A stretch of DNA of 64,000 bases from Lysobacter sp. MMG2 (GTDB lineage: Bacteria > Pseudomonadota > Gammaproteobacteria > Xanthomonadales > Xanthomonadaceae). The stretch is taken from positions 248,001 through 312,000 of the forward strand of contig NZ_JAERQY020000004.1 in assembly GCF_016735495.2 (NCBI RefSeq), given 5' to 3'. Each line of letters starts with the position of its first letter. Within the stretch, counting starts at the first letter, position 1. The notes beneath the pieces were generated by a model. That model was given only the letters and a program-made list of their open reading frames with translations. It was not told the origin of the DNA and did not search any database. This document shows, piece after piece, positions 20,898-63,028 of the stretch. The translations under genes and the position numbers were made by a program.

Positions 20898-21069
20898 CGG
20901 AATTCTCCAGCGCACGACGGCGCCGACGGCAAAAGGAACGGTTGCCGGGAGAGAGTGGGCCGCGGAATCGGAAGCGGAACGCCGACGTCGCCGCCGCGAC
21001 GCCCTCCGCATCGCAACCAGTGGCGGGTCCATGCTGATTCCAGACGGGCTGTTTCCAGTCGGGACCCTT

Positions 21070-21276
21070 GCGTCGCAGGCCGGTCTCCGGACTCGCGAGT
21101 GGAGGAGGCCCTCCGGCTGCGGCGCCTTCCCGTGCGTGTGCACAGTGGCGGTGTGCCGAGCTCGAACTCGCTTACCGTTGCGGGGGCAGTGCCGGACTGG
21201 CCGCGTGGCGGCGTCACCGGCTTCCCGTTTCAACCCGCCGGCAGGACGCCGCCGGGTCACCTCGAAGCGGGGCGAA
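21070..21276 (-). promoter_or_regulatory. Cobalamin (B12) riboswitch upstream of the BtuB-like gene
   Basis: Read on the minus strand the leader has, in order, a GAGGTG start near 21272, GGGAAGCCGGTGACGCC, the conserved core CACTGCCCCCGCAACGGTAA, a CCACTGTG segment, GGGAAGGCG, and the closing B12 box AGTCCGGAGACCGGCC near 21079–21093. This is the adenosylcobalamin riboswitch consensus. It ends about 170 bases before the receptor ATG, in a leader without other genes. Binding of B12 is expected to reduce expression of the receptor. Confidence 0.93.
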
Positions 21277-21309
21277 GTCTACGGCATTTTCGCGTGGAGG
21301 CTTGGGTTC

Positions 21310-34734: not shown

Positions 34735-35007
34735 TCAAATTCCGTCATCCCGGCGAAGGCCGGGACCCAGGCCCTCAGCGTGCGGGCACTCCCTCTGCGG
34801 TGAATATCCTCATCGTCATTCCCGCGTAGGCGGGGCTTGGGGGCCGTCGCATGGCACGCTTTCGTGTTGCCTGTGTGCAGCAACAGCAAAATGGATTCCC
34901 GCTTTCGCTGGAATGACGTGATGGGGCGGATGGCGTGACGGCCTGGATCCCGGCCTTCGCCGGGATGACGGCTTCGGGAAGGTGATGGGCGACTCCTTGC
35001 CGCACCG
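34735..35007. repeat. Cluster of GTCATTCCCGC/GTCATCCCGGC palindromic repeats
   Basis: The 374-base gap after the SDR gene holds no gene. It contains CGTCATCCCGGCGAAGGCC (about 34743–34761), CGTCATTCCCGCGTAGGCGG (about 34814), ATTCCCGCTTTCGCTGGAAT (about 34897), and GGATCCCGGCCTTCGCCGGG (about 34947). The outer copies are inverted relative to each other. This is a composite of the same family as 11006–11033. Confidence 0.75.
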
Positions 35008-35080
35008 CGCATCACACCACGCATCACGCATCACGCATCAAACCACGCATCGCATCCCGCATCACATCCCGCATCACACC
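35008..35080. repeat. CGCATCA short tandem array at the 3' end of the hydrolase gene
   Basis: Eight or so imperfect copies of CGCATCA, some expanded to 12 bases (CGCATCACACCA, GCATCACATCCC). The array covers the stop codon of the minus-strand hydrolase (35074–35076) and continues about 65 bases beyond it. Confidence 0.85.
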
Positions 35081-37425: not shown

Positions 37426-37854
37426 ATGAGCCTGCACGCAAAGTTCACGGTCTTCGCCAAGGCGGCCTCGCGCTGGACGGGCAACGCCACGGCCTTCGGG
37501 CTGGCGGTGCTGGTGATCCTGGCCTGGCTGGTCAGCGGCCCGATGTTCGGGTTCAGCGACACCTGGCAACTGATCATCAACACCGGCACGACGATCATCA
37601 CCTTCCTGATGGTGTTCCTGATCCAGAACACGCAGAACCGCGACACCGAGGCGATGCAGATCAAGCTGGACGAACTGATCCGCGCCACGCGCCGTGCCGA
37701 GAACGCGCTGCTGGACCTGGAGGAAATGGACCAGGACGAACTCGATCGCATGCGCAAGCGCTACGAAGAGCTGGCGCGCGTCGCGCGCGATCACGTCGAG
37801 GCGCGACAGCGCGGCTCGACTACGCGCAAGCCGCCGCACGATGCGTCGGGGTGA
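37426..37854 (+). CDS. Low-affinity iron permease family protein
   Basis: 142 residues from ATG 37426. Two hydrophobic helices (AFGLAVLVILAWLVSGPMF, then WQLIINTGTTIITFLMVFLI) are followed by the family hallmark IQNTQNRDTEAMQIKLDELI and a charged coiled-coil tail (EMDQDELDRMRKRYEELARV). The family takes its name from fungal Fet4; bacterial members have not been shown to transport iron. Divergent from the EETFPASDP gene. A terminator follows the stop. Confidence 0.85.
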   Translation: MSLHAKFTVFAKAASRWTGNATAFGLAVLVILAWLVSGPMFGFSDTWQLIINTGTTIITFLMVFLIQNTQNRDTEAMQIKLDELIRATRRAENALLDLEEMDQDELDRMRKRYEELARVARDHVEARQRGSTTRKPPHDASG

Positions 37855-37858
37855 AGTG

Positions 37859-37890
37859 CGCCTCTTCTGGATGCGGAAGAGGGGTTTTCT
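37859..37890 (+). terminator. Terminator of the iron-permease-family gene
   Basis: Stem CCTCTTC / GAAGAGG around TGGATGCG, followed by GGTTTTCT. Four to ten bases past the stop at 37854. Confidence 0.75.
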
Positions 37891-37924
37891 CCGTTACGGG
37901 ACGGCGCATGTCGCGTGCGCATTG

Positions 37925-38035
37925 AGCCCCTCTCCCGCTTGCGGGAGAGGGGTTGGGGTGAGGGCAGGTGGCCGCATTCGCGCGCCTCGCCCTCATCCGC
38001 CTGCCGGCACCTTCTCCCGCGCGCGGGAGAAGGGC
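37925..38035. repeat. Pair of CTCCCGC hairpin repeats
   Basis: A perfect 12-base stem (CCCCTCTCCCGC 37927–37938 with GCGGGAGAGGGG 37941–37952) and a second stem CCTTCTCCCGC/GCGGGAGAAGG at about 38010–38033, with CCCTCATCCGCC between them. Same dispersed family as near 21.32–21.46 kb. Confidence 0.85.
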
Positions 38036-38049
38036 TTCCACTGATACGC

Positions 38050-38352
38050 CACAGGTACTGCGCCACCCTCGCGCGGGCAGTGAGTCACCCTCGCGAGGGC
38101 AGCCCTCCACCCTCGAACGAGTCGCGGCGAGGATCGCGAGGCTGCGCGGCAGGGTCGCGAAGGCGCAACAACGCCCTCGCGCTGCGAGCAAGTCGTATCG
38201 CGAGGGTGTTCCGACACCCGCACGAGGGCATCGTCGTACCCGTGCGAGGGCGCCGGAGATTCGATCGAGGGCGCCCGCATGCCCACGCGATGCGACCAAG
38301 CAGCAGCGCGAGGGTATTCCGCACCCCGCGCGCGGGCATCGCCACGCCTGTG
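38050..38352. repeat. Degenerate 21–22 bp phased repeat array (about 14 units)
   Basis: Units start at 38050, 38072, 38094, 38116, 38137, 38158, 38180, 38201, 38223, 38245, 38266, 38288, 38309 and 38331, so each is 21 or 22 bases. Most begin CGAGGG (or CGCGGG) and several end CCCTCG or CCCGCG, making palindromic junctions such as CCCTCGCGAGGG at 38088–38099. A higher-order period of 108 bases is visible: units at 38180/38201 match 38288/38309. The array fills most of the 3'–3' gap between two convergent genes and ends 11 bases before the stop codon of the minus-strand gene. No open frame is conserved across it. Confidence 0.85.
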
Positions 38353-38363
38353 GAAGCTTGCAA

Positions 38364-39317
38364 TCAGAACGCGATGGTCGCCGTCACCATCAACGGATCG
38401 CCCTTGAGCCGCCGCTTCACGTTGAACTCGGAAAGCCAGCGGGCCGCGAACTCGACCTGTCCGCCTTCCCACTTCTTCGTGTAGTTGACGGTCGGTCCCA
38501 GCGCCAGCGCGTGGCCCTTGAAGCCGTCGAGGCGATCGGCGGTCGGGCCTTCGTCGTCTTCCAGCTGCTCGATCCACCCGCCGATGCCGCCCACGCCCCA
38601 GCCGTTGGCGAAGCGCTTGACCAGTTGCGCGTCGAGGCGGAACACGGCGCCGTTCTTGTAATCGGTCGCGTCGTTGCGCGTGTAGAAGTCCACCGCGCCG
38701 ACGGCGGTGAATTCCAGCGTGCCCTTCTGCATCAGCTGCGTGTAGCCGACCGTGGGCGAGTAGGTCCAGTTGTTGAGGCTCAGGTTCGCCAGGCGGTCGG
38801 GGTCGTAGCTGCCCCAGTCGCTGTAGATGTACAGCGCCAGCGTCATGTGATGCGTCTGGTCGAAGTGGTAGCCGGCGATGATCGGCGCGAAGAAGGGATC
38901 GAACACGTCCCAGTCGGCCTTGTCCTTGACCTGGCCCGTGCGCGGGCCGAGCGCGACGTTCGCGGTGACGTCCACGGTGGCGAACGGCAGCGTCGCCATC
39001 GAGGCGAAATTCCAGCGCCCTTCGCCGGTGTCCCACACGTACAGGCCGGTCACGCTGACCATGTCGAAGTCCGCGTCCAGGCCGAGCGTGAGCAGGTTGT
39101 TCACCGGCGTTTCGCGCGAGCCGCCGATCTCGCCGGAGTAGTGCACGAAGCCGATGGCCGCGTTGAAGCCCGGCGTCGGCGGAACCACGCCCGCGAAGGA
39201 CTGCACGGTGGTGCCGGTGATGGTGCGGCCCAGCGCGCCTTCGGTGGCCAACGCAGGCGGCGCGAGGCCGAGCGTGGCCAGCACGATGCAGGACGCGGAC
39301 AGGTTGCGTGTGTTCAT
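38364..39317 (-). CDS. Outer-membrane transporter-like protein, phenol-degradation MetA family
   Basis: 317 residues from ATG 39317 with AGGGAGAG upstream. Signal peptide to about residue 25 (LGLAPPALATEG). The family pattern is seen: GALGRTITGTTVQSFAGVVPP, FNAAIGFVHYSGE, YLYIYSDWGSYDP-like strands, and a C-terminal phenylalanine (TATIAF) expected of an outer-membrane barrel. Members are predicted hydrophobic-compound channels found beside degradation genes; no such genes are here. The phased array begins right after its stop. Confidence 0.82.
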   Translation of the reverse strand: MNTRNLSASCIVLATLGLAPPALATEGALGRTITGTTVQSFAGVVPPTPGFNAAIGFVHYSGEIGGSRETPVNNLLTLGLDADFDMVSVTGLYVWDTGEGRWNFASMATLPFATVDVTANVALGPRTGQVKDKADWDVFDPFFAPIIAGYHFDQTHHMTLALYIYSDWGSYDPDRLANLSLNNWTYSPTVGYTQLMQKGTLEFTAVGAVDFYTRNDATDYKNGAVFRLDAQLVKRFANGWGVGGIGGWIEQLEDDEGPTADRLDGFKGHALALGPTVNYTKKWEGGQVEFAARWLSEFNVKRRLKGDPLMVTATIAF

Positions 39318-60471: not shown

Positions 60472-61427
60472 GCGACACCCCGGCACCCTTCGCCTTCGTC
60501 GAGGCCGGCGCGGACGCCGCTTGCCGCGGTGCACTCGACCGTGCCGATCGCCTGCGCGACGACCCGGACGCGATCAAGGCGCTGTGGCCCCGCGCCCGCG
60601 TCGTCCTGCTCGACGACAAGGGCAACGCCTACGCCGACGAAGACGGCAACCTGCGCGCGCCGTTGGGCGATGAAATCAGCGAAGGCCCGGGCGGCGTGGG
60701 CGCTGCGGTGTTCCTCGGCCTGGATGCGCAAGGCGGCGGCTGGTTCGCGCTCGAAGGCGCGCTGACGGCGTTCGATGCGCCGAACCGTGTCGACCTGCGT
60801 CGCGCCGCCGTACTGTGGCCCGCGTTCGACGCCAGCGTGTTCGCACAGGCGCGCGCGCTGCAGCATTGGCGCAGCCGCCATCGCTTCTGCGGCGTGTGCG
60901 GCGGCGAAGTCGCGCTGTCGCGTGCGGGCTGGCAGGGCAAGTGCACCAAGTGCGGCACCGAACATTACCCGCGCACCGATCCGGCCGTGATCGTCGCCGT
61001 CAGCGACGGCACCCGCCTGCTGCTGGGCCGCCAGGCCATGTGGCCGGCGCGTCGCTATTCGGTGATCGCCGGCTTCGTGGAACCGGGCGAATCGCTGGAG
61101 CAGACCGTTGCGCGCGAAGTGCTCGAGGAAGCCGGCGTGCGCGTGCGTCGATGCCGTTACCAGGCCTCGCAGCCGTGGCCGTTCCCCGGTTCGCTGATGA
61201 TCGGCTTCGCTGCAGAAGCCGACGCCGATGACCCGCAAGTCGGCGACGAACTGGAAGACGCGCGCTGGTTCACTGCCGAGGAAGTGCGTCGTGCGCGCAC
61301 GCGTGGAGAGTGGGGCAGCACGCAGGATGACGGCGAAGGCCCGGTGCTGTCGCCGAGCATTTCGATCTCGCGCTGGCTGATCGAACAGTGGCTGGCGGAG
61401 CAGACGTCGGAGCGGCCGGGCGGCTAA
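60468..61427 (+). CDS. nudC: NADH pyrophosphatase NudC
   Basis: 319 residues from GTG 60468 (GTGA overlap with erpA). Zinc ribbon: [10 protein letters not shown] and [11 protein letters not shown]. Nudix box [18 protein letters not shown], continuing EEAGVRV. The substrate motif [11 protein letters not shown], diagnostic of NudC, is complete. The enzyme cleaves NADH and removes NAD caps from RNA. It is followed by a 12-base tandem array. Confidence 0.96.
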
Positions 61428-61450
61428 GCGCGGCCGCGCGATGACGTGCG

Positions 61451-61546
61451 CATCGAGGTGTGCATCGAGGTGTGCATCGAGGTGTGCATCGAGGTGTGCA
61501 TCGAGGTGTGCATCGAGGTGTGCATCGAGGTGTGCATCGAGGTGCG
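61451..61546. repeat. 12-base tandem repeat, eight copies
   Basis: Eight contiguous units of CATCGAGGTGTG, the last with CATCGAGGTGCG; the seven first are exact. The array starts 24 bases after the nudC stop. The 556-base gap to ampE also holds a palindrome (61655–61688) and no gene. The unit length is a multiple of three, so all frames stay open, but no start or ribosome-binding site is associated. Confidence 0.97.
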
Positions 61547-62945: not shown

Positions 62946-63028
62946 GCGTAGCCCGGGTAAGCGAAGCGCACCCGGGGAACCGATCGCCACTGCCACCCGG
63001 GTGCACTTCGCTTACCCGAGCTACGCGA
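62946..63028. repeat. Long palindrome between ampE and DUF2752
   Basis: GTAGCCCGGGTAAGCGAAGCGCACCCGG (about 62948) pairs with CACCCGGGTGCACTTCGCTTACCCGAGCTAC (about 62996–63026). A dispersed family; here it sits in a convergent gap and may act as a transcription stop for both sides. Confidence 0.8.

Follow-up and report, generated by a model that had tools for sequence, protein, structure and literature searches.

The repeat array described here occupies an intergenic interval of the window, by which we mean the whole 64,000-nucleotide stretch of Lysobacter sp. MMG2 DNA that was analysed. We read it as one of a set of dispersed intergenic strips of putative phased binding sites for a symmetric DNA-binding protein, evolving by gain and loss of whole units, and give this reading a probability of roughly 0.45. 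In function the array resembles a phased binding-site strip, and in its evolution a minisatellite. Arrays of ~21 bp pitch, belonging to at least three sequence families that each have their own core, are scattered over this one bacterial genus, which we take to be today's Noviluteimonas; among the matches listed from the open-licence literature, judged by title and the start of the abstract, such arrays are undescribed in this group.

An earlier note on this DNA had described about 14 units following each other at 21 or 22 bases, close to two turns of the helix, with a superperiod of five units or about 108 bases, and this description is borne out. We count about 15 cores, with nine core-to-core spacings of 22 bp and five of 21 bp. 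The array was scored with a circular profile HMM of 22 states, trained on seven other arrays with the window array, its conspecific copy and the copy at the porin locus of genome G009 excluded. It reached 111.6 bits (122.7 bits when the array itself was in the training set), compared with 18.7 bits for the runner-up segment in the 64 kb; the top held-out score in control DNA (forty 20-kb stretches, 800 kb, from six genomes) was 22.1 bits. The HMM favours 21-22 bp by design, since its 22 states allow single skips and stays, and the symmetry of its profile is partly imposed because it was trained on both strands; exact palindromes are directly visible in the array sequence. Self-matching of the array peaks at lags of 22 (0.43), 43 (0.39), 64 (0.38), 86 (0.38) and 108 (0.54). 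Judged against the maximum over lags 10-129 in 1000 dinucleotide shuffles (mean 0.37, SD 0.014, top 0.437), the peak at lag 108 stands above all shuffles and lag 22 alone (0.434) falls slightly below the top one. TRF detects only 38062-38115 within the array, at period 22. The 108-bp superperiod is real: its two copies are 72% identical, differing at 8/48 core and 16/39 spacer positions, and the conspecific genome G059 carries an additional 108-bp block.

Most of the repeating units had been described as starting with CGAGGG, with palindromic junctions; the palindromes stand, and a more fitting description of the unit is that of a 12-bp palindromic core, CCCKCGCGMGGG (CCC[TG]CGCG[AC]GGG), followed by a spacer of 9-10 nt. 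We refer to arrays of this type as family F1. Pooled over nine arrays, information content is 0.37-0.79 bits in the core, 0.35-0.57 bits at the spacer edges and 0.02-0.03 bits at the four central spacer positions. Unit lengths in nine arrays (n=134) are 21 (70), 22 (58), 20 (5) and 23 (1). Ten arrays with 11-18 cores each gave 144 core-to-core spacings of 21 (75), 22 (68) and 20 bp (1), and in none of the ten (0/10 at P<0.05) did the order of 21- and 22-bp steps show extra regularity over permuted orders; lattice phasing beyond the unit spacing was considered and not seen among ten arrays. By eye, variants resembling the core listed in Table 1 at 38110 recur close to an end of several other arrays, and their reverse complement is seen close to the opposite end.

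Table 1. Features of the array, its surroundings in the window, and the second array family
Feature	Position	Strand	Remarks
Low-affinity iron permease gene	37426..37854	+	Pfam PF04120; left neighbour
Terminator-like hairpin	37861..37882	+	between permease gene and array; consensus match only
Dispersed repeat (CCCCTCTCCCGC...GCGGGAGAAGG)	~37912..38044	.	abuts the array, unrelated to it; many copies in genus genomes
Phased array, family F1 (whole)	38050..38356	.	profile HMM and autocorrelation; ends approximate
Two 22-bp units	38066..38109	.	cores CCCTCGCGCGGG (38066-38077) and CCCTCGCGAGGG (38088-38099); HMM segmentation, exact core matches
Variant core CCCTCGAACGAGTC	38110..38123	+	sequence and unit segmentation
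Superperiod (108 bp, 5 units), copy one	38158..38244	.	
Composite inverted repeat over two units	38170..38210	.	18-nt arms, 83% complementary, separated by 5 nt
Superperiod, copy two	38266..38352	.	compared with copy one in the text
Phenol_MetA_deg gene	38364..39317	-	Pfam PF13557; right neighbour; 'porin' is a name given by eye
Family F2 arrays in G003	L244:18465-18830; L267; L268; L271		

A gap of 7 nt separates the end of the array from the stop codon of the PF13557 gene, which is on the minus strand. A promoter scan of 37800-38450 found none, and a Pfam search with the three ORFs that cross the array gave no match. In the dispersed repeat that abuts the array, CCCCTCTCCCGC forms inverted arms. 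The convergent-gene setting that had been pointed out for the array is correct at the window locus and does not extend to the arrays in general. Neighbours are convergent there (L223) and at L220, and by the listed ORFs also at L221, where the left one is ~1 kb off. They are divergent at L212 and L224 (the POT locus, its POT transporter named by eye) and co-directional at L217 and L218; the L218 array begins right behind a stop codon, its neighbours resembling creC and creD (by eye; the left gene from sequence). One neighbour each was resolved at L219 and L222. No gene context common to F1 arrays was found among the loci examined.

Related arrays occur at many loci. Searching 12 genus genomes with model R2, combined with HMM scores, yielded at least 14 F1 arrays in six of them (two each in G059, G002 and the window's own genome, G000, four in G009, three in G007 and one in G004), which answers the question raised by the earlier note of whether related copies exist and disposes of the idea that the array is unique to its locus. 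The count is a lower bound because models R1 and R2 are blurred, which in turn is because alignments A1 and A2 slipped; whole arrays aligned with MAFFT were likewise displaced by units, and that alignment served for viewing only. Thirteen of these arrays score 62-164 bits, and L212 (G007:C7) is weak at 34.7 bits (42.9 held out). The other six genus genomes yielded no F1 array (best R2 E-values 0.002-0.055, located matches at most 19.3 bits). A DNA search with the L041 array (the same place as L045) matched four of the 12, its own genome included. Across 395 genomes of the family, model R1 matched nine at E<=0.001, namely the six of the genus plus G073, G227 and G086. G073, from another genus, has a real array at 47.5 bits (54.3 held out), and G227, also from another genus, a borderline score of 26.5 bits (23.8 held out). 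The match in G086 (L062; 27.8 bits with the F1 profile) looked coding and was dropped and, because it scores about the same as G227, the call for the latter rests on reading the sequence. L063:1-190 of G227, in another genus of the family, is an AT-richer array of TCGCGA units (TCGCGAGATGTTTT...).

At the window locus itself, the porin-permease interval scores 108.0 bits in G009 and at most 15.3 bits in G007, G001, G004, G002, G008 and G003. No array was seen at the loci retrieved from L. lactosilyticus, from L. dokdonensis and from a Variovorax. The pattern TCGCGA x3 was found in 8/395 family genomes, including G073 and G227, compared with two genomes for the reversed control. Judged from the matched letters only, its matches in G001, G154 and G135 look coding and those in G123, G340 and G276 look made of 7-bp units. 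In genus g16 of the family, L088, L089 and L090 have TCGCGA sites 21 bp apart that are apparently made of 7-bp GGATTCG-like units.

Whole units have been gained or lost between close relatives. The window array differs from its conspecific copy in G059 (L047) by one 108-bp block and by either 4 or 15 substitutions, according to the position that the aligner gives to the block. At the POT locus (L160 versus L161), two 22-bp units, a single 1-nt gap and 4 substitutions separate this pair of genomes. Six array alignments contained gaps of 1, 2 or 3 nt, of 22 nt (two of them) and of 108 nt, and one each of 21 and 16 nt. Random drift of spacing in neighbouring strains, named beforehand as an observation that would speak against a phased array, did not appear, conspecifics differing mainly by whole units. 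The one clear dispersed full-length pair comprises the G009 arrays L045 and L049, which lie ~569 kb apart on one contig and are 77% identical over 329 columns. They align in a single register (237 bits, against 40 for the next) and their similarity ends at the array edges; being confined to the array, it indicates that whole arrays get copied. The POT locus holds arrays in G007 and G004 and other sequence in G009, G001, G008 and G003; a few F2-like units can be made out by eye in G003. A templated or hypermutated origin of the divergence between G007 and G004 was rejected, since transitions within the array (27/63) resemble those in the flanks (149/308).

To compare cores with spacers, we used states from held-out profiles and ranked the true phase among 22 offsets. 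Between the window array and its G009 orthologue, 36/161 core and 57/123 spacer positions differ (P printed as 0.0, rank 1/22). The dispersed pair L045/L049 gave 31/181 versus 46/143 (P 0.0013, rank 2) and L046/L048 35/149 versus 39/116 (P 0.046, rank 3). L046/L061 (G007 versus G004) points in the opposite direction, with 39/178 core and 23/144 spacer differences (one-sided P 0.93, true phase last of 22), and this array has diverged more (63/324) than the 4-fold sites of the adjoining gene (32/246). In the 108-bp blocks of L047, core versus spacer differences were 3/60 versus 8/48 and 19/60 versus 26/48. Cores are thus likely to be under constraint, though unevenly, changing more slowly than spacers in three of the four informative comparisons.

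The two halves of a core vary independently. Over 125 units from 11 arrays, the six symmetric core pairs show no excess complementarity (P>=0.115), nor do they under within-array shuffling. Such independence is expected where a symmetric protein contacts duplex DNA, unlike in an RNA stem. It is for this reason, together with the slower cores in three of four comparisons, that we favour a putative DNA-binding role, which had already been listed among the possibilities for this array. The 12-bp core and its free 9-10 nt spacer would put sites every 21-22 bp on one face of the helix, where a symmetric, presumably dimeric, protein might occupy adjacent cores side by side and build a cooperative nucleoprotein patch of ~300 bp. 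It is tempting to speculate that such a patch would act on the chromosome, through its folding, topology or segregation, and not on a single gene. Read in this way, the arrays are natural strips of aligned sites for testing phased multi-site chromosome organisation in bacteria.

Several readings from the earlier note can be narrowed further. That the array is neither a CRISPR array nor coding is supported. It shares regular repeat spacing with CRISPR arrays and differs from them in its degenerate 12-bp core, 9-10 nt spacers and 21-22 bp pitch; near-identical repeats of 24-48 bp, the CRISPR range given in PMC3733652, with unique spacers between them, are not found in it. No coding frame is conserved in F1, in which 21- and 22-bp steps are mixed and orthologous arrays differ by 1-nt gaps, in line with the lack of Pfam matches to the crossing ORFs. 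Intrinsic curvature, computed for arrays and their shuffles with Bolshoy wedge values, exceeded shuffles at P<0.05 in 3/13 arrays (the window array at P 0.033, L170 and L231). The bend suggested for the window array may exist there, and with 3/13 arrays above shuffles it is not a property common to the arrays.

The palindromes might instead act in RNA, as hairpins of terminators, attenuators or mRNA stabilisers, or as a transcript end, and this we consider unlikely. Predicted folding is strong, with energy z values of -6.4 for the window array and -5.0 for L045, and weak covariation is seen in four of the eight pairs that span the spacer (pooled P 0.0012-0.0092; P 0.0027-0.061 within arrays), a signal also expected from a hairpin and so a point against the binding strip; one cross-spacer pair is strongly anti-complementary. 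In two of four folds compared between G007 and G004, broken pairs fell below the null (G004 plus strand, 22/118, null 30, P 0.003, 5 compensatory; G007 minus strand, 24/116, null 29.5, P 0.043, 1 compensatory), whereas the other two gave no such signal and 0 compensatory changes each (G007 plus strand, 34/117, null 30; G004 minus strand, 24/112, null 26.7). The RNA reading also has to contend with the missing covariation of symmetric core pairs, with a distinct terminator-like site already ahead of the array, and with Rfam, where nothing reached the cut-off over the array and eight sub-threshold matches lay in or near it. Arrays between divergent as well as co-directional genes leave the transcript-end element that had been considered unsupported as a general role. 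Integrated plasmids, islands or phages could have left iterons or centromere repeats behind, which is the most improbable origin of those weighed here. In plasmid iterons and partition centromere arrays, numerous short sites lie at intervals of about two helical turns, which the ~22 bp spacing resembles; F1, however, sits at several chromosomal loci, and no gene beside it was recognised as serving replication or partition (the window neighbours being PF04120 and PF13557 by Pfam, the others read as ORFs). The window array has no match among the 72,556 plasmid records of our PLSDB copy or 50,697 phage records, L045 has two short plasmid matches only (50 and 36 bases), and one exact two-unit pattern found nothing in viral contigs. 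A REP/BIME-type element moved by a REP-associated tyrosine transposase is scarcely more credible. Such elements in E. coli, Pseudomonas, Stenotrophomonas and X. campestris are, like F1, short intergenic palindromes that are dispersed, clustered and regularly spaced, and the arrays match the BIMEs of Stenotrophomonas and X. campestris, as described in PMC2817692, in being intergenic, palindromic, clustered and dispersed. The same paper reports that BIMEs bind gyrase and IHF, and that Stenotrophomonas REP palindromes are preserved in a way suggesting complementary mutations, unlike the half-sites here. F1 differs in its 12-bp core at 21-22 bp pitch and 11-18 cores per array (ten arrays), REPs measuring 20-40 bp according to PMC3733652. 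Of the REP hallmarks, extragenic dispersed clustered palindromes are present and the tag and transposase are lacking: GTAG/CGTC counts on both strands are unsystematic (window 0/1, L045 2/3, L049 1/3, L046 0/2, with 15-16 cores each), and Y1_Tnp (PF01797) matched 0/12 genus genomes while 5/14 control genomes were positive.

A neutral or selfish minisatellite is the alternative that we take most seriously, and it is quite possible, if short of an even chance. Slippage or unequal exchange would duplicate and delete units, arrays would occasionally be copied, no protein would bind, and the 21-22 bp phase would persist only because changes come as whole units. The strain differences fit: F1 resembles bacterial minisatellites or VNTRs in having tandem units whose number varies between conspecifics (window versus G059, by one 108-bp block, and L160 versus L161, by two single 22-bp units). 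So do the G007/G004 orthologues, which outpace 4-fold sites with no core constraint, the orthologous sites of other species that lack arrays, and the further dispersed repeats that occupy the same intergenic regions. Several of these observations count directly against a binding strip, to which may be added that half of the 12 genus genomes yielded no F1 array, that the arrays have no gene context in common, that the step order is as irregular as in permutations, and that no binding protein was identified. The slower cores in three of four comparisons, in contrast, are not what a minisatellite predicts; nor is the persistence of cores and spacing beside randomised spacer centres, or the almost identical period of families with different cores. 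F1 is further unlike minisatellites in that units within an array have diverged save for the palindromic core, and in that one core recurs at dispersed loci while several core families keep a nearly equal pitch. If neutral, the arrays would lend themselves well to measuring how units turn over and how tandem DNA evolves in concert in bacteria.

Two further families have nearly this pitch, about 21 bp. Family F2 has the core CTTGCGCGCAAG with a spacing of 21 in 47/54 intervals at four G003 loci; its units were chosen by core, so that its core figure is inflated. The four arrays have a common core and differing spacer consensus, which speaks for binding sites, yet L267 and L271 agree at 8/9 spacer positions. 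A search for F2 matched 2/12 genomes, the only match outside G003 being a short one of 57 bases in G000; L279 (G003) looked coding and was left out. F3 (GAGCTC/GCTCGG type) matched 8/12 genus genomes, for example at four loci in G000 and five in G059, with best periods of 20.9-21.4 at the 20 loci examined. To this family belongs a near-exact 21-bp tandem array of the GGGTTCGGAGCTCGGCGTTCC type in the window's own genome, at L231:12950-13200 (G000:C4:132950-133200). A pitch of 21 is divisible by 3, which leaves open frames in several arrays of F2 and F3, and individual ones may be coding.

Scans blind to sequence recovered part of this set. The first covered 464 kb (the window, 200 kb of G000 and 200 kb of G003) in 22,843 scan windows with a 99.9% quantile of 0.404; the window array scored 0.604 and L236 0.622, with L244 (0.405) and L231 (0.393) near the quantile. 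It misses some arrays because known F1 arrays score 0.30-0.77. A wider scan (864 kb, six genomes, periods 14.5-36) returned 15 matches at >=0.42, five of which read as non-coding with period 21-21.5 (the window array, L231, L232, L244 and L236). L232 looks made of 7-bp units. The sixth non-coding match is a 12-bp repeat at 61446-61544, read as period 24, and nine look coding: one of period 18 in the window (checked) and, by eye, seven of 27 and one of 21 (L253). That F1, F2 and F3 are due to one cause would be a conjecture. It would have the genus carry a multi-family chromosomal system of phased-palindrome arrays, in which the core differs between families (CCCTCGCGAGGG, CTTGCGCGCAAG and GAGCTC/GCTCGG types) but is common to the dispersed arrays of one genome, and the two-turn pitch stays constant. 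Such a system would be the footprint of undescribed DNA-binding proteins that form arrays and change their specificity from species to species, comparable in bacteria to rapidly evolving satellite DNA and the proteins that bind it. We hold this broader proposal to be less likely than not.

Other features of the window were noted in passing. The 12-bp tandem repeat at 61446-61544 (GTGTGCATCGAG, 8.2 copies, 98% matches) lies behind an ORF ending at 61427, and another of 12 bp is found at 35003-35080 (CACCACGCATCA, 6.3 copies, 79% matches). The tRNA scan gave a single tRNA-Met, away from the array, and a Cobalamin riboswitch (RF00174, 85.9 bits) lies on the minus strand at 21061-21278. The motif GTAGCCCGGGT at 62948-62958 also occurs near the arrays at L050, L052, L160, L161, L267 and L268.
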